41,977 nt of DNA from IMG/VR virus record IMGVR_UViG_3300021368_000878, positions 1 to 41,977 of that record. One strand, given 5' to 3'. The translations under genes and the position numbers were made by a program. Shown here piece after piece: positions 21,901 to 41,772 of this stretch (within the stretch, counting starts at the first letter, position 1; every line of letters starts with the position of its first letter). This DNA is from a virus. The notes under the pieces are model-generated. The model saw only the letters and a list, made by a program, of their open reading frames with translations, made no database searches and was not told the DNA's origin.

Positions 21901-24900
21901 CACCACTGTCAGTGCCGATTGCCTGAATGATCATACCCATTAGGGTATCAACAGCAGCAACAGCAGAACCACAACGTGGAAGTAGTTCACCTGCATCCCA
22001 GTCTTCTACCATCGTAGGATCTTTGATCTGGGAGAGAGGATTACCAGCAGAAACTGTTACAGTCTCATTATTGATAACTTGGATTGCAATGTTCTTCGCT
22101 TCAGTGAATACTCTTGCTGCTTCATCACGCTCAGCGTCGATGAATGTCTCAACAGTAACACCATTGAATACGTTAGTAATATAGATCTTAGCACTGTCAT
22201 AAGTCTTGGAGTTACCACCAAACTTAACGTCCCACATGACTTCTTCAAGAACATCCATAACATCATCCAAGCAATCTTGCTTAGTGTTACCAGTTCCTGG
22301 TGTGTAATTAGGATAGACAGCAAGCATACGTCTGTATGCTTCTTCAGCGATGAATGCCTTGTTAAGTAGAACAACTCTGTGTGCATCACACTCGATGTCA
22401 CCAACGATAGTTGGATCGCCAATAGCATCTAGAGTGATGTTAAGATCGCGATCATAGTATTGGTTGTTTGCTGCACGGTTCATTAGATCTGCAGCACGCT
22501 TAAATGCAGTGATAGCAGGTCCAACTTCGTTGTCAACACCGTTGGTGATTAGGGAATTGCCATTAAAGTATTCCTTAGTTGCAGCGAGAGTATACTCATT
22601 ACCACCGAACCAGAGATCTTGTGCGATAGCATCAACAACGTGACCGATATCTCTGCGACACTTAGCTTCACCAGTGATGAATGTTCCAGTGTTATCAGCA
22701 GAGTTCCAAATACCACCAGTGATGTTACCATTAGTAATTGCGTCAGTAACAATCGTTCCTAGTGTATCAAGTGCTGCTTGTACATCAGAACATGCTGCTG
22801 GATCTTGTCTGTCAACAGGAGAAGAAACAACTTCTAGGACAGCATCAGTAGCAGCACTTACAAATGTATGAGTGTAGTTACCACCAGATCTTACAGCGCC
22901 TGCAGTTGCAGATACAAATGTATGTGCAGAAAGAGGACTGTATCTAACAGCATTTGCGGTAGCAGATACAAATGTATGTGCAGATGTATCAGACGATGTA
23001 CCTACATTAACTGTAATGGTAGTAGCGGTCTTAGCAGTAATGCTGATAGATCTACCAGCGTATGGATCAGTGCCAGGACGTGGATATGTGTGCTGAGTAG
23101 CATTGTTATCCAGAGCACATGTGAATGTGAAGGAGTTATCAGCAAGAACAATACCTTCACCAACATCTAGACCATGGTTTGCACCGATAGTGATCTCCAT
23201 GAGACCAGTGGTAGGATCGTAAGTAGCAAATGTTGGAGAGAAAGTACGGTTAGAATCTGCAGGACCAACGTTGATCTTAATTGTGTTAGCAGTTACAGCA
23301 GTGATAGGTACAGCAGTGTCATATACTCTATCTTGCTTCTTCTTAACACCATTAGCAGTTGCGCTAACAAATGTATGTGCATATTGATCATTTACACCAG
23401 AAACACCAACCTGAACTCTAAATCTGTTAGAAGTTACATCATAGATTGGGATCCACTTACCAGCGAAAGGATCAGTTCCTGCACGTGGATATGAATGCTG
23501 GGTCTGGTTGTTATCTTGAGTACAAGTAAATGTGACAGAGTTATTATCAAACTTAATTAGATCACCATTCTTCCAACCATGATTTGGGATGGTGCAAGTC
23601 ATTACACCAGTCGCAGGATCATAGTCAGCAGTAGTGATTGTATCCTGATCAATTAGAGTTCTAGGATATGAATGCTGGGTCTGGTTGTTATCCTTAGCAC
23701 AAGTAAATGTGAGTGATTCATCTACAAGTTTGATGCTCTCACCAACAACTAGAGAGTGACTACCAATTGTTAGTTCTACATCACCAGTAGAAGGTTCGTA
23801 GTCAGCAGCAGTAACGTTAAATGGAACGATTGGTGATGTACCAACGTTAACATCAAATGTATTTGTAGTTACATTAGATACTGTCATTGCAGTATCGAAG
23901 TTACCATCACCTTGACGTGGATATGTCTTCTGAGAGACATTACCATCCATGTCACACGTGAAAGTAAAGGAGTTATCCTTAAACTTGACTTGATCACCAT
24001 TGCTTAGACCGTGGTTAGCAATTGTAATCGTAGAAACACCAGTTGCAGGATTATAAGTAGCGGCAGATGGTGTGCCTACAGCAGGGTAAGAACCATTGTA
24101 GTTTGCATTACCTTCAGTAACAGTGAGATCCTTATAATACAGTCCATTATAGACTGCTTTCTTCATCTCATTAACTGCAGTTTGGAATGCAGTTACGCTC
24201 TCCGCTTCTTCACCCACAAGACCATTGCTCAGTGGTGTAGTAGCATTAGTAAAGTATTGTCTGGTGAATTCCTTGGAGTGTCTGTTACCCTCTGTGAACA
24301 TGTCAACAGAGATAGCATCGATGAAGTAACCGATGTCACGAGCACACTTGCTTTCGCCAGGACCCATGCCATAACCGTAGTTAACCTCGGTAGGCATTGT
24401 GCTAAGGTTACCTTGAGTAAAGACAGTCTGAACAATACCATTGAGAGTATCGATTGCTGCCTGAACGTCAGAGCATAGTGCAGGTTGTGCTGTGATTAGT
24501 TGATTTGCAGTGTTACCAGCGAAGGTAACAGCATCTGTAGCAGCACTTACAAACGTATGATTGCTGAAGTTTGTGTTACCATCACCAACATTAACTGTAA
24601 TGGTGTCAGTAGTAGCAGCAGTAATTTCAATGTACTGACCCGCAACAGGGTCAGTAGCTCTTGGATATGCGGTTGCTTGAGTATTACCATCTAGATCGCA
24701 AGTGAAACTTAGCGAACCAGTAGCAAGGGTGATATAATCACCAACAGATAGATCATGGTTAGCAATGCTAAGAACCGTAATACCAGTGTTTGGATCATAA
24801 GTTGCGCCGTGTGGAGTAAAGCTTCTTGTTACTTGACCATAGTCGCTGCCAGGTGCATTGTCAGCAGTAATGGTTAGATCTTTTTCATATAGTTGGTTGC

Positions 24901-27900
24901 TGACTGCCTTCTTCATCATCTCAGCAGCTTTAGCGAATGCAGTCTTAGAAGGACCTTCTTCGCCTGCTAGACCATCACTGATCTGAGTGGATACATTACT
25001 GAAGTATTCTGCACAGAACCTCCAAGTATATACGTTACCTTTTTTGAATAGGTCAAGTGCTAGAGCGTCAACAAAGTAACCGATGTCTCTACGGCACTTG
25101 CTTTCACCAGGACCAGCAATATAAGAAGTCTCTGCAGGTAGACCAGATAGATTACCAGCAGCAACTTGTGCGGTAACAATGTCAGTCAGTGTTACAATAG
25201 CAGACTGAACATCATCACAAGCACCAGAGTCAGTTCTGGGGATGTCATTACCGCCACCACCATACTGAGCAGGACCCTCAGTGACTGAGAGATCTTGAAT
25301 AGCAAGTTGGTTAGCAACTGCTAGTTTCATCTGATCTCTTGCCGAGTTAAATGCGGCAATACTTTCTGTTGTCTCACCTTGTAGACCACCAGTAATCCAG
25401 TTGTTACCAGTTCCGTCAAAGTATTCAGAGATAAACTTACGAGCGTACTTGTTACCACCAACAAACAAGTCAAGAGAGATAGCATCAACAAAGTAACCAA
25501 TATCTCTACGGCACTTATCCTCTAGATTAGGAGGTGCTGGGTTTGGTGGAGCAGCGTTGACTACACCCCATGCGGTGTTAACAATATCAGCTTTGTTCTG
25601 CTGGATCAAACGATATGCGTCAGCATATCTAGAACGTGCATCAGTCTCTTGATCACCTGGGATATAGAAGTCAGGATGTGCAACAGCAATCTGTGCTAGA
25701 CCAGTGTCAACAATCTCATCTCTGTTCTGTTGGATGAGACGGTATGCATCAGCGTATCTAGAACCGTCATCGGTCTGATTATCACCAGGGATATAGAAGT
25801 CAGGGTGAGATACTGCAATAGATGCAAGTGCTTTGTCTCTAATCTCAGAAGAGTTACGACGGATCAAACGGAAACCGTCAGCAAGTCTGGATTGAGAATT
25901 AGTTTGAGTGTCGCCAGGAATGTAGAAGTCAGGATGATATACACTGATCTCTGCCAGTGCTGCGTCGAGGATGAACTCTCTATTGGCGACAATTCTGTTA
26001 CGTGCGTCCTTATAACGACCAGCAGGATCTTGCTTCTGCGAGATGTCAATAGTTACGCCATTGGTTGTTAGTCCTGCTTCTTCTGCTGCAGAACCAGTGT
26101 AACCAGCGTTGATACCATATGGTGTTAGGTTGCTATTAGGATCAGGATCATAAAGGTCTGCCTTAACCGTTAGAAGGTTAGCGACTGCCTTCTTACAAAG
26201 ATCTCTTGCTCTATTAAATGCAAACAGTGATTGTGCTTCTTCACCAACCAAACCATTGTTGATTGGATCACCATTACCATCAAAGTAGAACTTAGTAGCA
26301 TCAATAATGTTGGAGTTACCACCATCTCTGAGGTCTTCTGCGATAGCGTCAACAATGAAACCAATGTCACGCTTACACTTACCATCAGCAACACCTTGGA
26401 TATTACCAATACCAAATGTTTCGACCATCTGGTCGAATGCTGTGTTGACAATCTCCTGACGGTTTGCAAGGATTAGGTTACGTGCGTCGAAGTAACGATT
26501 ACCTGCAGGATTTAAACCAGGGTTGACATAAGAAATGTTCTGAAGTCTAGGATACTTCTCTAAGATGTAACCGAAGACTTCCTCCTGGATCATGCGGCGG
26601 TTGCTTTCGATTAGGTTAGCAGCGTCAGCATAGACACTGTTAACAACACCACCAGATGGGTTTAGAATAGCACCCTTAGCAAGATACTTGACGAAACCTG
26701 TTGGTTCTAGAGCAACATTAAAGAACTCATCAGTACCAGCAGCAGGAGATAGTTTAACGTATAGTTCTTCGTTAGACTTAGCACCAATTCTGAAACCGTC
26801 AATTGTAGCAGCAGGACGATCAGTTGGTGTGATAATATCATCACTACCTAGGAACAGTTTGGTGTAGTTGTCAGTCTGAGATAGTGTTCCTTGGATGTCA
26901 ACAGTGTAGTAAGCAACTTTCTTAGTTGCTGCCTCAGTATCTTGTACCTGCTTAGGTGGAATAATGTCAGTAATGTAACCACCCTTATCTTGGTTAAAGG
27001 CGAAACCTTTGAAACCAATAGCATGAAGTGATGTATTACCGAAGTTGGAGTTAGAGTTGGTGATAGACATGTCACCACCACTTTCCATCAGGAAGTGATC
27101 AGCGAAACCAACAGCGAAGATCGAAACGTTCTGGATGAATGCGTCGTCAGATGCACGAACGTGGAAGTTTCTCCACTCATCCTTCCAATAACTATCACCC
27201 TTGGTGTGATAAGGAACCGTAGCAAATGCGTCTGCTAGTGATGCTTGGTTCCAAGTGTTAGAATACTCGTCGTAACGGATGAATGCTCTGTCGTCCTTCT
27301 GCAACGAAACACCCGTGTACTGCGCGATAACCATGGATTTGAATCCAGTGGCTTTCAGACCATTTGCCCAGATACCACAAATACCCCATGTAGATCTGAT
27401 CGATACGTTAAAGACATATGGCGATGCAGATTCGACACTATCAACTTCTGCTAGGGTCTGTGCGTTCTGTCCTAGCGTAGGTTGAGAAACTGTCTCTCCA
27501 GAAGAAAGGTTGGTGCCAATCGCACTGACAACAACAGGAACTTCGTAAGTAAACTTACGTGGATTGTTTTGATCGATCTCCTTAATCTGGAAGATACCTT
27601 CAAGGACTGTATCGATCTCAGTGTTAGCAATAGCAACGAACTGACCTTGGAAGTAACCATGGTCAACCTTTGTTGTTACTTCGATCTCAGAAGTAGATGC
27701 TGCAATACTGCTGTCAGTAGTAGCATCAGTGAACTTCAGACTTTCAATAACTCTACTGTCAGACAGAGGTCCAACAATTCTGTTCTCTTGGATATTAAAG
27801 TCGAATTCACCTGGATCATCAATTGTAGGTTGATACCTAGAGAATGCTTTAGCAATCTTTCTATAGAATAGCGCAAGTTCTTCCTTGTCAGCGTATTCAA

Positions 27901-28573
27901 AGACTGTCAGTTTGTGGTGAGAGAAGTTAGGTGCTGCTAGTCTAGTAAAGTCAGTAGGATCGTAGTAAACCTTACCAGTGCCTGCTGCAGAATCATATAG
28001 AGGAGATTCAGATGTAGTTTGACCATCTTTGATGGTGAACTGCCAGAAGTAACAACCACCAGTTACGTTGAAGATAGCAGAGCGAGGAATTTCACGTTCG
28101 GTAGTTGCAGGATCAGGCACATACATTGGTCTGATCGTGGTTCTTCTTAGGTCATAACCTACGAGAGAAGAACCTCTAGGGATGATAGCACCACCCTCAG
28201 TGTTGTTAAACTTATAGAGGACGTTATCTGGGTTAGAGATATCGAGAATAGGATCAGCACCCCATGCCTGAGTAACCTGATCAAATGCGAATTCATCAAT
28301 TCCAGTGGTATCTACTAGACCAGGACGGTTGTCGATGTAGTGAATACCAGGCATCAGCATGATGCTGAACTGGTCAAATCTATCATTACCAAAACCAGGG
28401 AGGTAAGAGAATCTTGCGATTTCTAGGAATGCACGCTGAATACTCTTAAATGGCGTGATTGGTGAATTACCTCTGTTAGATAACGCATCAGTTGCGTTAA
28501 AATCATCTGGTGAAACATAGAGATACTTACCAGTCTTTGAACTAATAAGATTATCTAAACGTGTTAGTGGCAT
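12983..28573 (-). CDS. Giant virion structural / fibre protein, 5196 aa
   Basis: One uninterrupted reading frame of 15.6 kb, over a third of the window. The N-terminus (residues 1-170) has ITPFKSIQRAFLEIARFS, then FSIMLMPGIHYI, like the start of right-handed beta-helix proteins of DUF1565 type. Residues about 640-1100 hold about six copies of a helical unit (ADAYRLIQQNRDEI, then HPDFYIPGD). Residues about 730-2560 hold about seven copies of a helical unit opening KCxRDIGYxVDAI. Residues about 1240-2450 hold about seven copies of a beta unit (TYDPxTG, TFTC, SYPRxGxDP, HTFVSA). The C-terminal third has fibre-like GRVGINVPNSQLDRVLVVDG segments and ends in a tail-fibre-like domain (MIRFIDITGNLSYNANLIVR to RGWWLMEL). 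A perfect late promoter lies 40 bp upstream. It is probably the main fibre or a baseplate-anchored structural protein; the exact T4 counterpart is uncertain. Confidence 0.88.
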   Translation of the reverse strand: MPLTRLDNLISSKTGKYLYVSPDDFNATDALSNRGNSPITPFKSIQRAFLEIARFSYLPGFGNDRFDQFSIMLMPGIHYIDNRPGLVDTTGIDEFAFDQVTQAWGADPILDISNPDNVLYKFNNTEGGAIIPRGSSLVGYDLRRTTIRPMYVPDPATTEREIPRSAIFNVTGGCYFWQFTIKDGQTTSESPLYDSAAGTGKVYYDPTDFTRLAAPNFSHHKLTVFEYADKEELALFYRKIAKAFSRYQPTIDDPGEFDFNIQENRIVGPLSDSRVIESLKFTDATTDSSIAASTSEIEVTTKVDHGYFQGQFVAIANTEIDTVLEGIFQIKEIDQNNPRKFTYEVPVVVSAIGTNLSSGETVSQPTLGQNAQTLAEVDSVESASPYVFNVSIRSTWGICGIWANGLKATGFKSMVIAQYTGVSLQKDDRAFIRYDEYSNTWNQASLADAFATVPYHTKGDSYWKDEWRNFHVRASDDAFIQNVSIFAVGFADHFLMESGGDMSITNSNSNFGNTSLHAIGFKGFAFNQDKGGYITDIIPPKQVQDTEAATKKVAYYTVDIQGTLSQTDNYTKLFLGSDDIITPTDRPAATIDGFRIGAKSNEELYVKLSPAAGTDEFFNVALEPTGFVKYLAKGAILNPSGGVVNSVYADAANLIESNRRMIQEEVFGYILEKYPRLQNISYVNPGLNPAGNRYFDARNLILANRQEIVNTAFDQMVETFGIGNIQGVADGKCKRDIGFIVDAIAEDLRDGGNSNIIDATKFYFDGNGDPINNGLVGEEAQSLFAFNRARDLCKKAVANLLTVKADLYDPDPNSNLTPYGINAGYTGSAAEEAGLTTNGVTIDISQKQDPAGRYKDARNRIVANREFILDAALAEISVYHPDFYIPGDTQTNSQSRLADGFRLIRRNSSEIRDKALASIAVSHPDFYIPGDNQTDDGSRYADAYRLIQQNRDEIVDTGLAQIAVAHPDFYIPGDQETDARSRYADAYRLIQQNKADIVNTAWGVVNAAPPNPAPPNLEDKCRRDIGYFVDAISLDLFVGGNKYARKFISEYFDGTGNNWITGGLQGETTESIAAFNSARDQMKLAVANQLAIQDLSVTEGPAQYGGGGNDIPRTDSGACDDVQSAIVTLTDIVTAQVAAGNLSGLPAETSYIAGPGESKCRRDIGYFVDALALDLFKKGNVYTWRFCAEYFSNVSTQISDGLAGEEGPSKTAFAKAAEMMKKAVSNQLYEKDLTITADNAPGSDYGQVTRSFTPHGATYDPNTGITVLSIANHDLSVGDYITLATGSLSFTCDLDGNTQATAYPRATDPVAGQYIEITAATTDTITVNVGDGNTNFSNHTFVSAATDAVTFAGNTANQLITAQPALCSDVQAAIDTLNGIVQTVFTQGNLSTMPTEVNYGYGMGPGESKCARDIGYFIDAISVDMFTEGNRHSKEFTRQYFTNATTPLSNGLVGEEAESVTAFQTAVNEMKKAVYNGLYYKDLTVTEGNANYNGSYPAVGTPSAATYNPATGVSTITIANHGLSNGDQVKFKDNSFTFTCDMDGNVSQKTYPRQGDGNFDTAMTVSNVTTNTFDVNVGTSPIVPFNVTAADYEPSTGDVELTIGSHSLVVGESIKLVDESLTFTCAKDNNQTQHSYPRTLIDQDTITTADYDPATGVMTCTIPNHGWKNGDLIKFDNNSVTFTCTQDNNQTQHSYPRAGTDPFAGKWIPIYDVTSNRFRVQVGVSGVNDQYAHTFVSATANGVKKKQDRVYDTAVPITAVTANTIKINVGPADSNRTFSPTFATYDPTTGLMEITIGANHGLDVGEGIVLADNSFTFTCALDNNATQHTYPRPGTDPYAGRSISITAKTATTITVNVGTSSDTSAHTFVSATANAVRYSPLSAHTFVSATAGAVRSGGNYTHTFVSAATDAVLEVVSSPVDRQDPAACSDVQAALDTLGTIVTDAITNGNITGGIWNSADNTGTFITGEAKCRRDIGHVVDAIAQDLWFGGNEYTLAATKEYFNGNSLITNGVDNEVGPAITAFKRAADLMNRAANNQYYDRDLNITLDAIGDPTIVGDIECDAHRVVLLNKAFIAEEAYRRMLAVYPNYTPGTGNTKQDCLDDVMDVLEEVMWDVKFGGNSKTYDSAKIYITNVFNGVTVETFIDAERDEAARVFTEAKNIAIQVINNETVTVSAGNPLSQIKDPTMVEDWDAGELLPRCGSAVAAVDTLMGMIIQAIGTDSGVGTLTATRTTGNPAADPAYDTAVNLTAVTTDTLSFNVGTSTHIYPHTFVSALAGAIVSGGAYDHRFVSAAANSVNVVGGSQLTPTNATYDPATGDFTMYFGSPHGVTTSDQVSLDDNGFTFKCAMDGYTANKTYPRAGSDPISGQNTAVTATTSTSFTINVGTSPLVEHDVTGATYDPASGLVVVTTSAAHNLTANTSIKIKTEGLTFRCTKDQGVTTHSYPRASRANQPTAYAMGNCADVLQTVDTLVGIVSDALYAGNLDNLPPLSNGNWDCANVRSTIENLFDIFTDAIGNGTIDNLPPVNKGDFTTNNEASKCFRDVSYIVDAVVNDLRLGGNQNSIQAGEAYYVGNSLTYIDGEKTETLDAWDYVGQLATAAMRNFDVLAYNCSTTAGSAIVDVNDTRGIVIGMSVKEYDNSSNVDPAYVNGLLQDGATALYNNIPEGAYVKRIVSNTQIELGVKNSRLNEGNTVNAQLTSSTTELYFVYEEGIWADTLPTTVTVGPENTGPDVIQDTLTSATYRECSGTADAIETLIGCITTIINSGLGTVSLQEQTVNTALLASRATVFTIDTTGLGPSNPHNFETGTPVRLVPRPRFDSVTGKYVDVDKRLVRLPNGFETNRTYYVIAPGRVTQPEDFSGTSFFNGADQTKLMLATSKENAAAGIYIYASETDSIDKDVEIDLYQFILDDKYDLHNYTSTLASATFIQTDVSHVFDLPSASTTPQKVFFRASEGGQLPAVSTTYANDADVAVIDSGSSNFGKINPNKEFFARYQTNKRFTIHLSHSDAINNVNPISFVVTSADFQVYANKRRSPMRFDPSFTDGVTDAGKWYIQCKDQVTGQLDSVKKNNIFWRINQSDYADTPRSTDMWYERLDDTREADERTYKIRFVIPKYLENARDPINGFVLKTRTDDTRRLVPQKVLLKPVTGTVYGARFENPVQAGERIGFVKEDFTTNTLNTDNAYDPYKKDQTGAGTEYRAFARFASGVQATIQSGRYVADDLDPTIQYLELTLFDHTIDTLNFSGLSNEILTTVKITAPQGGIFVANKTRNGAADDNAASFAGNSSGNCSIHAYYTVNGEHYLIIKNIRDGILEYSEFTNTRFTQGNVFADMLEDQDMGKSLPLKTHIRKNYPEYFYKQNGANVYTITPGDRIQDSAGVEYYVDSVEDAGVIEDTFYIFGYETLQRRIAGQQDGIYYLTALRGNISPFPTGAGVTNNFKKFKFSQPVSKLYPLNYRNDPLWFKNNGTTQSEKDYYANLIDPPQVYSAADNYVHGLVTVNDFKGSTTRELVEDLINNPAFIYNTYTGDNQIRAQQGNATSGSEDRRIPIAGDSLVVADQRYYVELRRPSIARAGNHTFEYLGFGPGNYSTGLPARQEVVLTPDEDFYAQSKKQDGGIVFYTGINSQGDLYIGNRRINAITGEETFIDRATLADDGDEDDVIGGLVTTFDTPVTFNQNITIVGGDGSLVNSIESPFVISVQDGDFTQVKDSLIIRSNVASTENGLTNGKEQDERLNRVEFTPPTAGDITLSKNKVKAAVFEFTPIRYPRARGYKFFTHAIGAFGSNQTPNQSANVFPTSGGTRLTYTNSLGDIVTQQKANFGGVLPVAGDFLFKGAQVNLTGSLGWVFADGYTQVPNATVYQIISDSSNRIKISWRASGVAVLNSALGISDNSQIRITDYYPNTSLNGTWFIVSPDGDAFSVNNSYVHIQLVDPVPAGTTNWSSVIAGAAASNNGNGSVPTVEFSNSLWKECGVLGAEALRTETETIGNFKLGINTVARAAHSAFENAWTSNDTTPRANLDVVGTAFISGRTTDDFNNHANFADRDKNAENNAFLVGGDSAAPNDEAVFRIATTNGGRVGINVPNSQLDRVLVVDGLSRFTDDARFEHDIEVNGDNGSVAEVRTSQTTGTVNLFNDSTFVGGNNTAGMNLAGWAKTIKIGSGTTANQWIYIGDSCTGDQFLRLGNSADHSNIFLGDIADTATYISKVQIGGAYGNNSSNSYTLIGTRQTSLAGDLLIGANRTTGGDETNPDQVVTVRSEAGVLNFFTTQTQTVNFATNASLITIGGQGGTTTVRNNFVVDANARFNADIKLCGGNASYSFEGDRGQLGTDDFAHPSGVLGQNTFNSNIDIINVGVITVADFNAPTTAELAAGFNRVDTAGAGVWGGTNFQESKSGAGAEGADLPAITGDEFYLPMKYRPTPYFQAGDYLLIDTAPTGSGNSERYPELVRITEDGLQGAESAPYYLKVKRHPLGSFTKYKLQQLNPAKDYLDNHLDATNVWKCNIAFDATWTTTVVDATGPRDNFYLSQFGGGLTTNDYVIVDREDTNDDGDFNQGEIVKVVTQLDQVSKKLIVTRGCDTATETNVFIVDSVTGDITIGDQTDQDSVLNIYGSLTLEGGCGATTSSVVNDIFDEFAGTSDDKKLTLTNRVFPTFEVNTCMGDTVIGNQWGHVWALQAHYQSSASAHTTSEDVIVYTEDPQTIQADGPKTLLASTLSGGQTQFLVVNSITGFSAGDLVLIYQGTTKAEFIRITAAPYVDSGSNEPRIPFSTSVDYPSGGRAQETTTAQSFTVGAVVVKVQKDTRTTKLATALPATGRTQAPSPNTNPDRIKIELVNGDLVAQKLDYPQVIRIGSEFFLPDSIDGNVDPAFGVKMPKSIRDSYDNDEPEANIRRYFGGGRLRVHDDLNLTSGNLRMFGTDAKTLIFSVANDDGHPGDGAILDPVTGRSGLYLNGRADIYGQLRVFKQVCQENGVCTNDNVFKVDNQDGSVEMGASLYHKGKILANESSSDKLVHIDNIGSAGNTGAGPKDFIMYQDGSIDAFGISRYLNSNGGRRWTYLAASTTGFGQVVDNPLQPNGNYLCNPSSSGNMVVYLPSDAQTGDMIRFIDITGNLSYNANLIVRALPIGTTAVPIQGDSTGTKAVAGSGAASAVAWNSGELIVQTRNASFGLVYVGASDAVGDPNASEIPTDLRGWWLMEL
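20890..26400 (-). repeat. Protein-level repeat A (KCxRDIGYxVDAI unit), about 7 copies
   Basis: A helical unit of about 75 residues with the pattern K-C-x-R-D-I-G-Y-x-V-D-A-I, D-L-x-x-G-G-N, Y-F, N-G-L-x-G-E-E, A-F, K-K-A-V-x-N. Copies centre near 26365, 25495, 25085, 24330, 22645, 22255 (degenerate) and 20930. The units alternate with repeat B rather than lying in tandem. Confidence 0.8.
21220..24860 (-). repeat. Protein-level repeat B (TYDPxTG ... HTFVSA unit), about 7 copies
   Basis: A beta-rich unit of about 60-100 residues: TYDPxTG, HGLxxGDxIK, DNSxTFTC, TQHSYPRxGTDP, TxxTINVGTS, HTFVSAxxxAV. Five copies lie between about 24860 and 22900 and two between about 21650 and 21220. Extra isolated HTFVSA tails sit near 22950, 22860 and 21750. 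Some copies are partial. Confidence 0.8.
25560..26640 (-). repeat. Protein-level repeat C (RYADAYRLIQQNR ... HPDFYIPGD), about 6 copies
   Basis: A helical unit of about 40 residues: S-R-Y-A-D-A-Y-R-L-I-x-x-N-R-x-E-I, A-L-A-x-I-A-V-x-H-P-D-F-Y-I-P-G-D. Four near-tandem copies lie at about 25565-26025, and two more diverged copies (VYADAANLIESNRRMI and RYFDARNLILANRQEI) lie upstream. The tandem copies are also similar as DNA, suggesting recent duplication. Confidence 0.78.
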
Positions 28574-33771: not shown

Positions 33772-36624
33772 CTATGGGCAATCGATGTATTCGCCAGTAC
33801 CAATTCTGGTAGAACCGACAGTTGCCAATGCATCAGTATCTAGACATGCTAGTGATGGTAATAGTTTAGCACCATAACCACCGCCACCAATGATATCAAT
33901 TGCAGGGAACCTATCAAATGTTCTTGTTCTGTCTAACATTCTAGCACCAATGACAAATCCATCATCATTAATTACTGCTTCTGCTACACCAAGTTCTCCA
34001 TTTACATAGAGATCAGGAACCTCAGTATATCCAACGCCTGGTCTCAAGATTGTAAATGCATCAACAATACAACGAACACCTTGATCTTTTGCTAGGTTCT
34101 TCTTATAACCAAAACCATTAGACTGTAGTCTGATTTCTGTTAGGAAACCATCTCCATCTAGCAGAGCAGTTCCTACTGCACCAATACCTTCGCCGCCAAT
34201 AAAGACATATGGTGGTTCTGCCCATGGATCTCCTGGTTTATCAACAGGGATTTCAATGATACCTCCATTCTCGTCAGTAATGATCTTACTAGGATCAATA
34301 GTTGGGAACTCAAACTCTCTGTAAGTATTTTCTGGTGTCTCACCAGTTCCTGTATCATAGTCATCAATACCAAGATCATCTGCAGTAGTGATGAGAACAT
34401 CGGCAAATACACCTTTACCATTCAAAGTAAATCTGAGTGTCTCTGCATCTTCTACAACATCGTCATCTTCAATACCAACAGTCACTTTTGCTTGGTTGTC
34501 AGTAATGATAATTTGTCCTGTCAATTGACCACCAACAATATCACCACTAGTAATACCAGTTCCATTTAGAGTATAGAACAGAACTGTTCCATCTACTACA
34601 TTAGTTGTGGTAATCGTGTAGATGATAAACTCACCTTCTGGACAGAAAGATCTATTGGCGGTTATGTTATATGTTGGTGTTGTATTTGTAGTTTCGTCTA
34701 CACCACTCACAGGTGTGCTTGGGAAGTTAATAGTGTTGTCAGGAACATCAGGAATAGGTGTTAATGGATTGGATGGTTGTGTCAAGTATTGATCACCATC
34801 ATCTGGGGAAGTTACATTACTCTCAGTAATAGTACACTTACCAATGTTCTTAATAAAGTTTGTACTAATTCCACTACCTTCTTGAGGACTATTCTTGCTT
34901 AGTGAGATAAAGAAGTCTTCTGACGGTTCTGCTTGATCATTGTATAGTGTCTGGACTGGAATAGTCTTACTGGTTTCATTAGGAGCAAATCCTAAGATAC
35001 CAGAAGTTTCTTGATAATCTACTCCTGTCGTAGCACTTCCTTGATTATTGAGTGTTTTATAATTAATTGAAGATGCCTCTTCTGTAAATCCAGACCTTGT
35101 TACTGTAAATGTTGCTGTCTCCCCTTCTGATACCGTAATATCACCAATATTGTACTTAATGATTGGTTTTGTGTTGTTACCTGTGCCTAGTGCAGGAACA
35201 CCACCAGTAAATCCTACAGTTGTAATATCTAAACTCTTTCCTTTGTAAGCGTCATCGCAGACATATTGTGTATAATCAGCAGGTGTGTCTCCAAAGAGAT
35301 TGTCAATATCACCCAAGAGATCATCTAAGAAGTTCTTATCATCATCATCTTTCTTCTTCTCACCAGTTGTGCATACTTTCTTGTACTTTGCACATGTGGT
35401 ATCAGGACCAGAGCAAGAAATACCTAATAGTTTCAATACAAAGTTGATTGCATCACCAAGAATATTCAATGGTTCAGCAATAGCACCTAGGATTTCTTGT
35501 AGAGGACCTAGAATGCTGGATAGCAACTCACTCATCAATTGATTGATCTTAGACATGATGCCATTAACAAGTTCGTCAATCTGACATGCAATTGCCTGAT
35601 AAATTTGATTGATATAACTCATCAACACATTGGTCAACCACTCTGCTAATCTAGTGCCAAGATCTTCCATCTGACAGTTAAGATCTTTCAGTAGATTATT
35701 GAACCACTCTGTTACTGGTGTCAGTGAATTACCTGTCTCATCTTGTCTTAGCAGTGCTTTTGTTAGATCATTGACACCTGCAGCAAGTTTTGTCTTGATA
35801 TATCCTTTTACTCTAGCAATAAATTCAGATACTACAAGGTTTGCTTTGTTGATTTGTGTTCTAACTTGACCGACTGCTTCATTTAGTCCACCAGTTACTT
35901 TGTTAACATAGAATGTACCAAGTTGTCCGTCATTCTCTTGAATAGTTGCTAGCATCCCACTTACGATGCCAGTCATCTGTGTCTTTAAATCAACATCCTT
36001 ACACTTCTCTGCTACTTCTTGGCACCACTCTTCCTGTGATTTAACTAGTTTTGGATCGTTAACGTTTGGACCAGGAACTCTTTGGTTACCATTACCATCT
36101 GTACTTCCGTCTGACTGACCACCACCAGTTTTAGCGGTCTTATCACTCTCTCCACCCTCTCTATTTTCTGGACTTTCTTGTCCATCTTTAGCAGGGTTAG
36201 GTGCATATGCACCTGATCTAGTTCCATGAGTAAAACCAGGATCATCTGGTCTTACATTTTTAACTACTGTTGTTGAACCAGGGGTCTGTCCAATAGACCC
36301 TAGGATCAATGGTTTCTGCTTCATGTTATCCATGTAGAAACCAATAACCCAACAACCCTCTACGAGTTGTGGGTCACCACCACCAATATTGCCAGGCATG
36401 AAAGGAACATTCACAGGCATCATTACATTTGCCCATGGGAGTTCACTCGTTTGTAGCAAGGACTTATCTTGAGGATGATCCCCAATAATCCTTACCTTAT
36501 AACGATAACCACCCTTATTATTTGCTTCATCCGAAGCAGTTCCTTCGATTTGCCCCACCCACCAAGAAAAACCGTCATGACCAGTCCTCTCAATGGGTAT
36601 CAATGCTGATAGCGCCTGATCCAT
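33772..36624 (-). CDS. gp5: Baseplate hub protein, gp5-like with OB fold and Calx-beta-like domains
   Basis: A 950-residue protein. Residues about 12-115 (GFSWWVGQIEG, YRYKVRIIGDHPQDKSLLQT, LPWANVMMPVNVP, EGCWVIGFYMDNMKQKPLIL) match the T4 gp5 N-terminal OB fold that connects hub and spike. Residues about 195-400 are helical and amphipathic. Residues about 485-597 (VSEGETATFTVTRSG, GVDYQETSG, EPSEDFFISLS) form a Calx-beta domain, and 645-745 (EGEFIIYTITTTN, VEDAETLRFTL) a second, weaker one. The C-terminus has GYTEVPDLYVNG and GGGGYGAKLLPSL modules shared with the polyglycine collar protein. T4 gp5 has a lysozyme domain after the OB fold; none is visible here, and a lysozyme-like domain lies in the 852-residue protein upstream. 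Confidence 0.82.
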   Translation of the reverse strand: MDQALSALIPIERTGHDGFSWWVGQIEGTASDEANNKGGYRYKVRIIGDHPQDKSLLQTSELPWANVMMPVNVPFMPGNIGGGDPQLVEGCWVIGFYMDNMKQKPLILGSIGQTPGSTTVVKNVRPDDPGFTHGTRSGAYAPNPAKDGQESPENREGGESDKTAKTGGGQSDGSTDGNGNQRVPGPNVNDPKLVKSQEEWCQEVAEKCKDVDLKTQMTGIVSGMLATIQENDGQLGTFYVNKVTGGLNEAVGQVRTQINKANLVVSEFIARVKGYIKTKLAAGVNDLTKALLRQDETGNSLTPVTEWFNNLLKDLNCQMEDLGTRLAEWLTNVLMSYINQIYQAIACQIDELVNGIMSKINQLMSELLSSILGPLQEILGAIAEPLNILGDAINFVLKLLGISCSGPDTTCAKYKKVCTTGEKKKDDDDKNFLDDLLGDIDNLFGDTPADYTQYVCDDAYKGKSLDITTVGFTGGVPALGTGNNTKPIIKYNIGDITVSEGETATFTVTRSGFTEEASSINYKTLNNQGSATTGVDYQETSGILGFAPNETSKTIPVQTLYNDQAEPSEDFFISLSKNSPQEGSGISTNFIKNIGKCTITESNVTSPDDGDQYLTQPSNPLTPIPDVPDNTINFPSTPVSGVDETTNTTPTYNITANRSFCPEGEFIIYTITTTNVVDGTVLFYTLNGTGITSGDIVGGQLTGQIIITDNQAKVTVGIEDDDVVEDAETLRFTLNGKGVFADVLITTADDLGIDDYDTGTGETPENTYREFEFPTIDPSKIITDENGGIIEIPVDKPGDPWAEPPYVFIGGEGIGAVGTALLDGDGFLTEIRLQSNGFGYKKNLAKDQGVRCIVDAFTILRPGVGYTEVPDLYVNGELGVAEAVINDDGFVIGARMLDRTRTFDRFPAIDIIGGGGYGAKLLPSLACLDTDALATVGSTRIGTGEYIDCP

Positions 36625-36876: not shown

Positions 36877-38316
36877 TTATTTATTGCCGTGATTAGACTG
36901 TTCTCCCTTCATTCCATAAGAATCTCGGGTCAGTTTAATGGTTGTAGTAAAGTTACCATTGTTGCCTTTTGTTCTATCATACGTGTGTGTTACCTCTGCA
37001 GCGAGATAGAGACCGCTACTTTCTACGTCTACTTCATTTTTTAGTGTCTCGGATGATGGTGCTTTATTGATCAGTCTAATGTCAACTCGGTCACCTGCAC
37101 AAATTTCTGCATTTCCTGGTATTACGACTTGACATTGCTGTAGTTGCAACAATCTATATCTAGCAACTGACTGTGCAGCATAATATTTCTGCCAGTCAGC
37201 AAACTTTGTTGGGTCTTTGCCTCCATCCGTAGGTTCTGGTGATGCTGGTTCAGGTTCATTATACCATGTTTCATGGTCCAATAGAATAGACATCAACTTG
37301 CTAGGAGTTTTAGACAGATCTTTTCCTGTAGCACTTACTTGGTTTAGTGACTGTTGTCCACCCAAGTGTGCCATATTGTCAAAGGTATCTGTCAAGACAT
37401 AATCATACTCTTCATACTGTCCAGTGGAATGATTGAAGAATACAATTTTAGATCCATACTGACCTTTTCTAAGACTAGTCATTAGATCTAGGTCAGATTT
37501 GAATGTTGCTGATTTAATAGTAAATCTATTGTCACTATTATCACTTACATTGACCGCTCTTTCAACATATGGTCCCCATTCCTTGACATTCCATTTCTTA
37601 GATTTTAGTGGACTTTCTTCATCGGCGCATAGACTATCAACGGCAAAGAAATTATATCCTCTATGTGTTTCCCAGAAGAAAAACCCACTACTTCCCTTAA
37701 CTTTCTTAGTTGCTGGGTCAGAAGATGCTGATGAACTAGAAGATTTAGCAGTTTTATCTCCACTATATTTTGCATGTGGAGAAACAGATTTTGCTAGCAG
37801 TTTGCTGATGATATCAAATGGTCTTTCTCTTGTAGGTAGATAACTTACCTCAAACAAAGAGTTTTCAGAAAAAACTTGTTTAGCAGATCCTAGGTATGAA
37901 CTATCAGAAAGCAATTTACTGACAATACTTTCTGGATTGCCTTGCAGTCTAGCAGTAACTCTTACAGTTTCATTGAGTAGTGCTTCTTCTGATACTAGTG
38001 CAATAGTGTATACTTGAGTATTTTGTTGCGTGTATCTGTTGGCAACTTTCCAAACTCTAAAGTTATACTCAAAATTTTCTTCTCTAATATTAGTCTTGAC
38101 AGCGATTTTTACTTTTTCCATACCTTGAATAGGTAGGTTCTGTAATAATCCACCACTATCAACTGTTACCATCGTAGCAGATACAAATGGCATGTATACA
38201 CTTTCAACATAATCAACGCTGGATATCAATGCCGTAATATCAAGTGTTTCACCACTAACAGACGTTATTTGAACTCCAGACAGTCTAAAGTCAGTTGTAG
38301 ATTGAAAAGTTTCCAT
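36877..38316 (-). CDS. Baseplate hub protein, gp27-like
   Basis: A 479-residue protein. Its N-terminus (FRLSGVQITSVSGETLDITA, then SSVDYVESVYMPFVSATMVT, then GMEKVKIAVKT) has the beta-barrel hub pattern of T4 gp27 and related tail-hub proteins, which form a trimeric ring at the end of the tail tube and hold gp5. The C-terminal part (VVIPGNAEICAGDRVDIRLI, SSGLYLAAEVTHTYDR, FTTTIKLTRDSYG) resembles the late barrel of gp27/gpD-type hubs. It has a Ser/Lys-rich insertion near residue 195-210. Start coupled to the upstream stop (TAATG); it precedes the gp5-like gene with one small gene between. The gp27 identity is by pattern and context. Confidence 0.75.
   Translation of the reverse strand: METFQSTTDFRLSGVQITSVSGETLDITALISSVDYVESVYMPFVSATMVTVDSGGLLQNLPIQGMEKVKIAVKTNIREENFEYNFRVWKVANRYTQQNTQVYTIALVSEEALLNETVRVTARLQGNPESIVSKLLSDSSYLGSAKQVFSENSLFEVSYLPTRERPFDIISKLLAKSVSPHAKYSGDKTAKSSSSSASSDPATKKVKGSSGFFFWETHRGYNFFAVDSLCADEESPLKSKKWNVKEWGPYVERAVNVSDNSDNRFTIKSATFKSDLDLMTSLRKGQYGSKIVFFNHSTGQYEEYDYVLTDTFDNMAHLGGQQSLNQVSATGKDLSKTPSKLMSILLDHETWYNEPEPASPEPTDGGKDPTKFADWQKYYAAQSVARYRLLQLQQCQVVIPGNAEICAGDRVDIRLINKAPSSETLKNEVDVESSGLYLAAEVTHTYDRTKGNNGNFTTTIKLTRDSYGMKGEQSNHGNK
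36878..36885 (-). promoter_or_regulatory. Late promoter (AATAAATA)
   Basis: AATAAATA on the minus strand, 7 of 8 to the T4 late consensus, lies inside the last codons of the gp27-like gene and about 20 bp before the ATG at 36857. Confidence 0.6.
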
Positions 38317-40874
38317 TATGCAGTCCTCGGGATAACAAACGCTTGTAATCCTTGTCCTTCAGATCCTGCTGCTGCTGGTTCTATGACTGGTACACCACTA
38401 GAACCTCCATTTGCTGCACTAGCAACTTCTGGCATTACAACTGTTGTTGTTTTTCCATTGAGTGCTCTATCTGCAGATGCAACATCACTAGAAGCACCGC
38501 TCACTGCTGCTGCTTGATCTTTATTTGCTGGATTTAGTCCATCTGTAGTTCTACTCTTATACCTCCTCATGAATTCTTGTTCTAGTCCCGCAGGAATTTC
38601 ATCTGGTTTAAGTTCCGTATTTCCTTGAAATATGTTACCTTTTTTCAAAACTTTCCATCCGTCATCTGTTTTGACGACTCTATACATTTGACCACCAATA
38701 CCAACATCAAGACCTTGACCAGTTTCTAGTCCGTAATTTCTATTACCCAAGAAACTAGGAGTAATTCCTGTAGTTTTAGTATCATCTATTGGGGTTTCAA
38801 TCGGTGCCGCTTTAGTTCCTCTAATTTCATCTAAAACTGTGCCATATGCACTATTCAATCCATCATTATCATAAACACCTGACCCATCAGCTTTTTTAAT
38901 TGAAGCAAATTGACCTGCTAGTCCATCATTATATTGCTCTGCAGTGATTTTTCCACTTAGATAATCTTGCTGACCTGCCATGTTTAGATAATATTCAGCA
39001 AGTTTATCTTGAGTTTCTTGATCGAATTTAGAATTTAAATCAATACCAAGTGCTCTTGCTGCTCTATCTGGATACAACATTTGATATGCACCAACTGCAG
39101 CACTTCTATGTTCTTTTTTAATGCCCAATCCTCTTTGATGAGCAATGTAATCTTTCTGATATTGAACAACCTGATTGATTGTCATTTTGGTAATATCTTC
39201 ATCTTTTCTTGAGAAACCACCAAGATACTTCTTAAAAGTAGATCCATAATTACCGCCAGATTCTAGTGATCTAATCTTTCCTTTCAATGTGCCATCAGAA
39301 GCAGTGTATTTTGGACCGCCACCGCCCCTGGGTCCGCGTCTAAAGCGTCTTCTGTCGTCGTCAACGCCTTTAGGTTTTTCCCTTTTAGATACAAATTCCT
39401 TTAATAAAGGAATATTACTAAAGATATTATACAAAGCATCACTAATGAAAGTTCCTATAGAAGAGACAACTTCTTTGAACTTTTTAACAAATTTGTCCCA
39501 CCCACTCTCTTTATCATAATATTGGGTCATACCCTCCGCTGCAAACTTAGCGAAGTCTTTCTTATGTTTCTTACGGTTAAGGAACATACCTTCACCAAGA
39601 CCTTCACCAATTTTAACTGTTTCTCTTGACTTAGTACCACTCAATGTCAACTCTGTTCCATGCATCATGGACAGATAACCTGTTTTAGGACCACTTGTAA
39701 GTCCACCACCTGACATTGATGGCATACTAGCATCTCGTGCCATCAATGCAGCATCAATACCTAGAGATGCAGCAGTACCAAAACCAGGGATCATACTTGC
39801 TCCACCTGAAGCAAGTTCCATGCCAGCACCAGCAAAGTCGCCTGCCATTGCTCTCTGTCCAGCAAATAGTGCTGCAGCACCAAGTCCTAAGAATGGGATT
39901 TTCTTGATACCCATTTTAAGACCACCCTTAAGTAGTCCTTTGGTTGCACCTTTTGCTGCTCCTTTACCTAGGAGTTTACCACCAAGTCCTTTTAAACCCT
40001 TTAGTGCTCCACCAAGTCCTTTAAGACCTTTCAGTCCTCCTAGCAGACCACCACCTTTACCGCCCAGCAATCCACCGAGCATACCCATGATGCCGCCACC
40101 ACCAGCTTTGCCACCCGCTGCGTCTGGTCTGAGAGTGCTGCTAAGGTCGCCACCCTTCTCCATGGCATTCTCTTTCGCAGCAGCAAGTTGCCTAGTGAAC
40201 ATTGCTTCACTAGACTGAATTTCCTGAGTTGCTAATTGTGTATCATTTGCAGTCTGTTCTCTGATCGCATTTTCCATGCGAACAATTGCTGCCGTATTGG
40301 CATTAAGAGCAGAAACAATATCACCACCATTGCCACCACCACTGAAATCAAGACCAACTTCAGAAGTTTTTTCTGGTCTACCAGCTTTAAATGCTGCAAT
40401 CCTTGCTTCTTTGCTTAGATATTCACCAGTATCGGCATCAATACCATCAGTAACCGCTTTACTAAAGAAATTATTACTATTAAGTCCTCTGGTAATAGAA
40501 CCACCCATGTCAACGGTAGATCCGCCTTTTGCCCCAGGAATTCTAGGTCCACCAGGAGGAAGCGCAGGACCACCACGCTGCACCATATTTGATAAAGCGC
40601 CACCCATGGCATTCTTTATCGCAGATGCTCCACGTTTTGATAGAGCACCACCTTTGCTGACTTCTTCTTGTACTTTTACTTCCTGAACATCTGGTTCTTT
40701 GTAGATGTCAGTATTTTGTCCCTTTTTGACAATAGCAAGAGCACCACCAGTCTCTGGAGGTGGTCCATTATCTTTTCCACGCTTACCCATCGCCTTCAAT
40801 AAGTCACCAATCGTCTTAAAAAGACTTAGGTCCTTATTGTTTGCTGATTCAGGTGTAAGATATCCGTGTGCCAT
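38316..40874 (-). CDS. Tape-measure-like hub protein with lysozyme-like domain
   Basis: An 852-residue protein. Residues about 195-250 are helical. About 250-390 is a Gly/Lys/Leu- and Ala-rich hydrophobic stretch (LLGGLKGLKGLGGALKGLKG, LGLGAAALFAGQRAMAGDFA) that could enter a membrane, as in tape-measure C-termini. Residues about 528-690 form a lysozyme-like muralytic domain: KIRSLESGGNYGSTF supplies the probable catalytic Glu near 535, followed by DITKMTINQVVQYQ and AAVGAYQMLYPDRAARAL. It would be ejected or exposed to open a path through peptidoglycan. It starts at the stop of the frameshift frame (TAATG) and is followed by the gp27-like gene, the position a tape measure occupies in many long-tailed phages. 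Whether it sets tail length is not shown. Confidence 0.72.
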   Translation of the reverse strand: MAHGYLTPESANNKDLSLFKTIGDLLKAMGKRGKDNGPPPETGGALAIVKKGQNTDIYKEPDVQEVKVQEEVSKGGALSKRGASAIKNAMGGALSNMVQRGGPALPPGGPRIPGAKGGSTVDMGGSITRGLNSNNFFSKAVTDGIDADTGEYLSKEARIAAFKAGRPEKTSEVGLDFSGGGNGGDIVSALNANTAAIVRMENAIREQTANDTQLATQEIQSSEAMFTRQLAAAKENAMEKGGDLSSTLRPDAAGGKAGGGGIMGMLGGLLGGKGGGLLGGLKGLKGLGGALKGLKGLGGKLLGKGAAKGATKGLLKGGLKMGIKKIPFLGLGAAALFAGQRAMAGDFAGAGMELASGGASMIPGFGTAASLGIDAALMARDASMPSMSGGGLTSGPKTGYLSMMHGTELTLSGTKSRETVKIGEGLGEGMFLNRKKHKKDFAKFAAEGMTQYYDKESGWDKFVKKFKEVVSSIGTFISDALYNIFSNIPLLKEFVSKREKPKGVDDDRRRFRRGPRGGGGPKYTASDGTLKGKIRSLESGGNYGSTFKKYLGGFSRKDEDITKMTINQVVQYQKDYIAHQRGLGIKKEHRSAAVGAYQMLYPDRAARALGIDLNSKFDQETQDKLAEYYLNMAGQQDYLSGKITAEQYNDGLAGQFASIKKADGSGVYDNDGLNSAYGTVLDEIRGTKAAPIETPIDDTKTTGITPSFLGNRNYGLETGQGLDVGIGGQMYRVVKTDDGWKVLKKGNIFQGNTELKPDEIPAGLEQEFMRRYKSRTTDGLNPANKDQAAAVSGASSDVASADRALNGKTTTVVMPEVASAANGGSSGVPVIEPAAAGSEGQGLQAFVIPRTA

Positions 40875-41065
40875 TATCGTTGTTTAGCGATTGCCTCTTG
40901 TTCTTTTTTGACTTGATCTAAGTATTGAAGCAACAAAGTTGTGTAAACTTGTCGCTCCCAAGGCATCATATTTTCAATCTCTGTCAAGCTATATTTATGG
41001 TGCTGCATCAAAGCAAAGTTAGTCTTAAAATACCCCTCCAAACTATTGTGGAAGAGTGCTATCCG
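40874..41065 (-). CDS. -1 frameshift extension of gp26-like protein (gpT/gp51-like)
   Basis: An open -1 frame of 63 codons continues from the slippery site near the end of the gp26-like gene to a TAA that overlaps the next ATG. It reads RIALFHNSLEGYFKTNFALM, then QHHKYSLTEIENMMPWERQV, then YTTLLLQYLDQVKKEQ and onward. Frameshifting would make a 299-residue fusion (236 + 63). The HHKYSLTEIENMMPWER segment looks conserved and resembles small tail-assembly proteins of phages whose chaperone is made by frameshifting. Independent initiation at the ATG at 41008 would give a 44-residue protein; no Shine-Dalgarno is evident there. Confidence 0.72.
   Translation of the reverse strand, partial: RIALFHNSLEGYFKTNFALMQHHKYSLTEIENMMPWERQVYTTLLLQYLDQVKKEQEAIAKQR
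40992..40999 (-). promoter_or_regulatory. Possible late promoter (CATAAATA)
   Basis: CATAAATA on the minus strand within the -1 frame, about 118 bp before the tape-measure-like ATG. One mismatch to TATAAATA. It could be chance, because it lies in coding sequence. Confidence 0.3.
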
Positions 41066-41071
41066 AAAAAA
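41032..41071 (-). promoter_or_regulatory. Programmed -1 ribosomal frameshift signal
   Basis: On the minus strand the slippery heptamer T TTT TTC (41071-41065) is in the zero frame of the gp26-like gene, two codons before its TAG stop. A 7-nt spacer GGATAGC precedes a 9-bp stem (ACTCTTCCA with TGGAGGGGT, two G-U pairs) around an 8-nt loop. Slippage by -1 enters the open frame described for 40874-41065 exactly. Confidence 0.75.
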
Positions 41072-41772
41072 CTTGCTAATCCCTCAATCACGAACTCTGA
41101 TTCTTCACCAGTATTTGGATTTGTGACAGAAAATGTGTGTGAGAGCGTAGGAGCAGTTTCAAAGAATTTCTGCAATTCTTCAAATTGAGAATTAGTCAAA
41201 TTTTCTACAAACTGAACAAATTCCTTCTTTGTCGTGGTAGAACTGTCATATACGTCATCACCATCATAGATTTGATCAATACAACTTGCAACAACACTCA
41301 ATACATCAGTTGCATCGGGTTGAATACCAGCAATTGAAGATTTCACGAATTCCTTCAATGAAGGATATCTCATAACGATGCCCATTTTATCAGAAAGTTC
41401 GATTTTGTTGGTATGACCTTCTGGGAAGTTTACCTTTACATCAGCTAGATTGAGATTATACTTAACTTGCGTTTCACCATCATCTTTGCAAGTTACGTTC
41501 ATTTCAACGATTTCACCAACAGAGACAGCACGAATTTGAAGGAAAATGAATTCCAAATCAAAAATTGGTAAATCTTCGATTTTTACACGACTTAGGATAC
41601 AACCTTTTAATAGTTGTCTGACAGCATCTTCAATATTCTTCTCATCCTGAGATTCTAGTGCTATCAACAGTAATTTTTCTTCTTTTACGACAAATGGGCG
41701 AAATTTGACTTTTTTGCCATTTGAAGGAATTGTTAACTCATACGTTGGTAGAGCAACCTGTGGTAATGCCAT
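41059..41772 (-). CDS. gp26: Baseplate hub / tail assembly protein, gp26-like
   Basis: A 237-residue protein. LPTYELTIPSNGKKVKFRPF, then VVKEEKLLLIALESQDEKNI, matches the opening of the T4 baseplate family (PF12322-like, gp26), followed by FDLEFIFLQIRAVSVGEIVE. T4 gp26 is needed for hub assembly. The C-terminal part is helical (KKEFVQFVENLTNSQFEELQ) and ends EGLASFFG. Its place just before the tape-measure-like gene, and the frameshift signal at its end, match gpG/gpGT tail-assembly chaperones. A late-type CTAAATA lies 25 bp upstream. No Shine-Dalgarno visible. Confidence 0.85.
   Translation of the reverse strand: MALPQVALPTYELTIPSNGKKVKFRPFVVKEEKLLLIALESQDEKNIEDAVRQLLKGCILSRVKIEDLPIFDLEFIFLQIRAVSVGEIVEMNVTCKDDGETQVKYNLNLADVKVNFPEGHTNKIELSDKMGIVMRYPSLKEFVKSSIAGIQPDATDVLSVVASCIDQIYDGDDVYDSSTTTKKEFVQFVENLTNSQFEELQKFFETAPTLSHTFSVTNPNTGEESEFVIEGLASFFG

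Follow-up and report, generated by a model that had tools for sequence, protein, structure and literature searches.

The junction between the gp26- and gp51-like coding sequences of a T4-like marine phage very probably carries a programmed −1 frameshift site, which would give a short chaperone (237 amino acids) and a minor long form (299 amino acids) with a C-terminal gp51-like domain. Comparative sequence evidence shows a conserved site, a conserved coding frame at −1 behind it and selection on three signals around it. The predicted short and long forms are homologous to T4 gp26 and gp51.

The gp26 junction in the window

The window analysed was a complete IMG/VR record of 41,977 bases, itself a fragment of a T4-like marine phage. 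All features of the junction lie on the minus strand. The gp26-like open reading frame (41059–41772, 237 amino acids; PF12322, 4.5e-75; phrog_150, 6.1e-83), the predicted short form or TAC-N, ends in AGT TTT TTC GGA TAG, with its stop codon at 41061–41059. An earlier reading of the window from the sequence alone had proposed an in-frame T TTT TTC near this stop and a 9-bp stem 7 nt downstream of it. The candidate slippery heptamer was located at 41071–41065 and, after a 7-nt spacer (41064–41058), the stem-loop at 41057–41032, with the arms ACTCTTCCA and TGGAGGGGT (41057–41049 and 41040–41032) and a loop of 8 nt. A Shine–Dalgarno (SD)-like element, GAGGGA (41085–41080), predicted from its duplex energy with the anti-SD (aSD) sequence, lies 8 nt 5′ of the heptamer. 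It was absent from the sequence-only reading and is added here.

The −1 frame from the heptamer onwards (41065–40874; phrog_634, 2.9e-26) comprises 63 codons and a TAA, and its translation at the junction reads FF-RIALFHNSLEGYFKTNFALMQHHKYSLTEIENMMPWERQVYTTLLLQYLDQVKKEQEAIAKQR. The TAA (40876–40874) overlaps the ATG at 40874 of an 852-amino-acid open reading frame. Joined to gp26 residues 1–236, the extension (gp51-like, TAC-C) gives a product of 299 amino acids, so that the proposed 63-residue extension, 299-residue product and stop/start overlap all hold as numbers. The −1 frame had also been described as opening exactly at the heptamer; this is the case in a number of relatives, whereas in the window it opens four codons earlier.

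The window taken alone is suggestive only. TTTTTTC occurred in it 8 times against 7.9 expected, as often as in shuffled sequence, and the mere presence of a heptamer was therefore given no weight. The folded part of the stem had an energy of −9.4 kcal/mol (z −1.5), and 15 of 200 shuffles folded equally well, which for this single sequence is not significant.

Conservation of the heptamer

To place the junction among its relatives, 195 sequences were gathered from IMG/VR and annotated phages. The gp26 stop was readable in 192 of them, and the homologous loci formed 112 clusters at 85% nucleotide identity. Of the 192 loci, 183 had an in-frame T TTT TT(C/T) at the 3′ end of gp26, a conservation that makes chance untenable. 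T TTT TTC was equally far from the stop in 176 loci, and the T TTT TTT variant also occurred. The carriers included Kyanoviridae, KVP40-type vibriophages, Aeh1, Sinorhizobium phage phiN3, Caulobacter phage Cr30, Delftia phage PhiW-14, Desulfovibrio phage 7757 and Methylophilales phage Melnitz. The nine exceptions were seven T4-type loci and two Ackermannviridae. A slippery heptamer of the form X XXY YYZ, as in chaperones of the G/GT type, is thus conserved among the gp26 homologues.

When 101 gp26 genes were aligned by codon, the two phenylalanine codons of the heptamer (codons 235 and 236) retained 0.0 and 0.09 of the expected synonymous diversity, and of the 237 gp26 codons they were the only ones below 0.1. 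The codon before them varied between Ser, Asn, Asp, Ala and Gly, always with T as its third base. Aligning the junction in relatives, as the sequence-only reading had suggested, showed conservation of the heptamer, the spacer and the −1 frame, frozen synonymous sites in the heptamer and a recurring stem. Homologues without a slippery site, or with stops in the −1 frame, had been named as evidence that would count against a frameshift; the heptamer was kept as given above, and the −1 frame was never interrupted (182 of 182 readable loci).

In SFP10-like Ackermannviridae (L190, L199–L213), the gp26 3′ end lacks T TTT TTC and carries a conserved GA[G/A] ATT TTC ATT TAA TTTTTGAAATTGATTTA, where a −1 frame opens that encodes a TAC-C-like extension. 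The SFP10 annotation leaves this extension as intergenic. The conserved 3′ end is possibly a non-canonical shift site instead of a standard heptamer.

Predicted stimulatory signals

Folding downstream of the heptamer was conserved across the 112 clusters, with a mean z of −2.45 compared to −0.4 to +0.2 in seven control windows. Permuting synonymous codons among the sequences abolished the structure (Z −19.5 at the junction, 0 to −6 elsewhere), although this Z overstates significance since the loci are phylogenetically related. The stem had z < −1 in 71% of clusters and was not detected in every lineage. Two main clades had different stem sequences (ACTCTTCCA/TGGAAGGGT and ATGGCTCA/TGAGTCAT); in the clade of the window, the stem began 7 nt 3′ of the heptamer in 25 of 29 clusters.

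The best SD-like site ended 7–9 nt 5′ of the heptamer in 109 of the 112 clusters. The mean energy of the aSD duplex over all clusters was −6.0 kcal/mol, compared to −3.9 kcal/mol when these amino acids were encoded with the codon usage of the whole gene, and GGG was chosen at this site in 32 of 112 cases versus 50 of 793 glycine codons elsewhere. The element is too far from any ATG of the extension and is thus presumably not the ribosome-binding site of the latter. Together, the predicted elements fit the dnaX-type layout, with its SD-like element roughly 10 nt before the heptamer and its hairpin 5–9 nt after it.

The run of six or seven T could also invite slippage of RNA polymerase on T6, adding one U, so that the −1 frame would be reached from edited transcripts. 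We consider this extremely improbable. Polymerase slippage needs no in-phase heptamer, ribosome-spaced hairpin or SD-like element, yet all of these are conserved, and six T is a short run for slippage by bacterial RNA polymerase.

The extension as coding sequence

The extension was open for 58–71 codons, the two phenylalanine codons included, in all readable loci, and the other two frames contained stops in 112 of 112 clusters. Over the 17 codons after the heptamer, dN/dS was 0.135 in the −1 frame versus about 1.4 in the other frames, as determined for the 49 clusters without an ATG within the first 20 extension codons. The sequences hence predict a short open reading frame that is extended, through a −1 shift close to its 3′ end, by a C-terminal domain, which is the arrangement of G/GT-type chaperones.

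The database records annotate the extension as a separate small gp51 gene, and among the annotated records examined none had the gp26 and extension frames joined. Translation from an ATG of its own, either internally or through reinitiation once gp26 has been terminated, would make the heptamer incidental. Such a start is conceivable where an ATG lies just after the gp26 stop (S-PM2, S-RIM32, S-H9-2) or overlaps it (Vibrio phages V09 and YC). As a general explanation it is very unlikely. The first ATG of the extension was found at codon 4, 5, 6, 8, 10, 11, 20, 21, 34 or 35, or was absent, and is thus not conserved in position. Purifying selection acts in the −1 frame on the residues encoded before this ATG, which an independent gp51 start cannot explain. 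A separate start also leaves the frozen TTT TTC, the SD-like codons and the stem unexplained, and T4 gp51 is a full-length fusion (see below). Some clades have an ATG 4–8 codons after the heptamer, and there part of the product could come from separate initiation in addition to the proposed frameshift. In Vibrio phage YC (L194, 4690–4917), the heptamer is absent and the ATG of the extension overlaps the gp26 stop (TAATG), which suggests translational coupling in place of a frameshift.

Relationship to T4 gp26 and gp51

The phrog_634 family matched by the extension is named baseplate hub assembly catalyst (gp51). A comparison with T4 gp51, also suggested by the sequence-only reading, indicated homology to its C-terminus: a hidden Markov model built from the extensions matched T4 gp51 residues 200–246 with 22 bits. 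A second, in-frame gp51 was sought in the same 41,977-base record, a fragment, and was not found. T4 gp51 as a whole matched phrog_150 (residues 13–280) and phrog_634, that is, the gp26 family and the extension family, and is therefore laid out like the fused long form. The T4 gp26 3′ end reads GAG TTC TTT GAG, without the heptamer. Judged by these matches, T4 gp26 has the layout of the short form, and T4 makes short and long forms from divergent, separate genes. The T4 genes 26 and 51 thus belong to the same families as the junction described here, with the gp51 C-terminus homologous to the extension, but differ in being two divergent genes without a heptamer.

Cyanophage and vibriophage gp51 have been described as lacking the first ~200 residues, and Aeh1 as lacking gp51 (Sullivan et al. 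2010, PMC3037559). In Aeh1 (L094, 4717–4884), the extension is present, unannotated, as the −1 frame of gp26. The frameshift would explain the remark of Sullivan et al., as the "missing" ~200 residues would be supplied by gp26.

Fold of gp26 and role of the two forms

An AlphaFold model of gp26 (pLDDT 88.5) was ranked against the Foldseek candidates listed. The best three matches among these were the HK97 tail assembly chaperone (TAC; 2ob9, Z 6.8), YqbN (3klu, 6.5) and RBSTP2171 (3fgx, 5.9), all three of which are called tail assembly chaperones in PMC9603447. According to the model, gp26 carries a tail-assembly-chaperone (TAC-N) fold, with structural Z values of 6–7 being moderate.

The frameshift might be real and gp26 and the fusion nevertheless be structural parts of the baseplate hub, not chaperones of the tape measure. 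The annotation of gp26, which calls it a hub subunit, would agree with this, as would earlier T4 genetics, which put gp26 in the hub (PMC3004832). However, T4 particles contain no gp51 and gp26 also counts as a chaperone of hub assembly (PMC3004832), three solved tail assembly chaperones rank first among the matches listed in the fold search, and the locus, in the order tail tube, gp26/gp51, large open reading frame, resembles the lambda region that contains G/GT and H. A structural role is thus unlikely. The frameshifted tail-assembly chaperone pair that the sequence-only reading had proposed gained support from the conservation of the junction, the frozen synonymous sites, the gp51 homology and the chaperone-like gp26 model.

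The downstream gene and gene order

The 852-amino-acid open reading frame (38316–40874, minus strand) matched phrog_18972 and endolysin families. Genes at the same position in S-PM2, Cr30 and phiN3 matched tape-measure families, weakly and partly via a lysozyme-like domain. From its position, its overlapping start and these weak family matches, the product is a probable tape-measure protein with a lysozyme-like domain; it is called only probable because the matches of the relatives run partly through that domain. A function as endolysin only was rejected, as the relatives' genes at this position match tape-measure families as well. A tail tube gene lies upstream of gp26 in phiN3 and D485, and the upstream gene of the window is cut by its end.

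Elsewhere on the minus strand, the window contains a single open reading frame of 5196 amino acids (12983–28573) with matches to short-tail-fibre and tail-fibre families (phrog_4527, phrog_529). Its weak Pfam Phycobilisome match, without a single significant stretch, is probably an artefact of repeats. A gp5-like hub/tail lysozyme with a Calx-beta domain (PF03160, 7.4e-16) is encoded at 33772–36624.

Discussion

In the proposed mechanism, most ribosomes would stop at the TAG and release gp26, the short form. A ribosome with two tRNA-Phe on TTT TTC would pause between the SD-like contact 8 nt 5′ and the hairpin 7 nt 3′; both tRNAs would slip to TTT TTT, and reading would go on with CGG ATA GCA. 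We infer that host ribosomes slip in this way, at a rate that lets a minority pass the gp26 stop and make the long form (TAC-NC), which would end at the TAA overlapping the tape-measure ATG. Both forms may coat the tape measure, the probable product of the next gene, while the tail is being built, and TAC-NC may guide it.

This mechanism is similar to that of lambda gpG/gpGT. The lambda heptamer is GGGAAAG and differs from the one found here, the likeness proposed being one of layout. The E. coli dnaX cassette consists of an upstream SD-like element, a heptamer and a downstream hairpin. The junction has the same three elements, but the dnaX heptamer is A AAA AAG and the gene is unrelated.

Frameshifting is reportedly conserved in several groups of T4-like phages, with genes 26 and 51 serving in T4. 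The TAC genes of T4-like phages were identified by Vladimirov, Gautam and Davidson (Virology 2022, 566:9–15), a study covered here through papers that cite it. According to PRFect (PMC10885494), which cites it, certain T4-like phages have, in place of a frameshift, both a short gene and a fused longer one; poly-T frameshift sites in T4-like TAC-N genes are described, again with reference to it, in the Adele paper (PMC12846349). As conveyed by these papers, the published principle shares with our junction the gp26/gp51-type TAC-N and TAC-NC, some groups having a poly-T site and others two distinct genes, one short and one long. The suggestion that a gp26/gp51 frameshift might be undescribed was consequently mistaken, the principle having been published for T4-like phages in 2022. 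In the literature searched, which included the 2022 study via its citing papers, no explicit mention of a cyanomyovirus frameshift was found. Relative to that study as conveyed by its citing papers, the SD-like element, the stem and the synonymous-site tests are added here. The TAC locus of Vandenendeviridae and Andersonviridae (PMC12846349) is also poly-T, with a −1 extension annotated as a hypothetical gene; its motif is GTTTTT, versus T TTT TTC at our junction.

We tentatively propose, as a plausible rather than a probable generalization, that a dnaX-like three-part cassette (SD-like element, U UUU UUC, hairpin) is under selection in almost every T4 relative sampled that does not belong to the T4 group, that T4 escaped it via separate short and long genes, and that the −1 fusion has been retained in Kuttervirus-like Ackermannviridae, though at a site of non-canonical type.

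The proposed frameshift would correct the annotation of gp51 in hundreds of marine T4-like phages, in which it is missing or given an arbitrary start. T4 would be the exception, its gp26/gp51 pair resembling the same two chaperones made without a frameshift.
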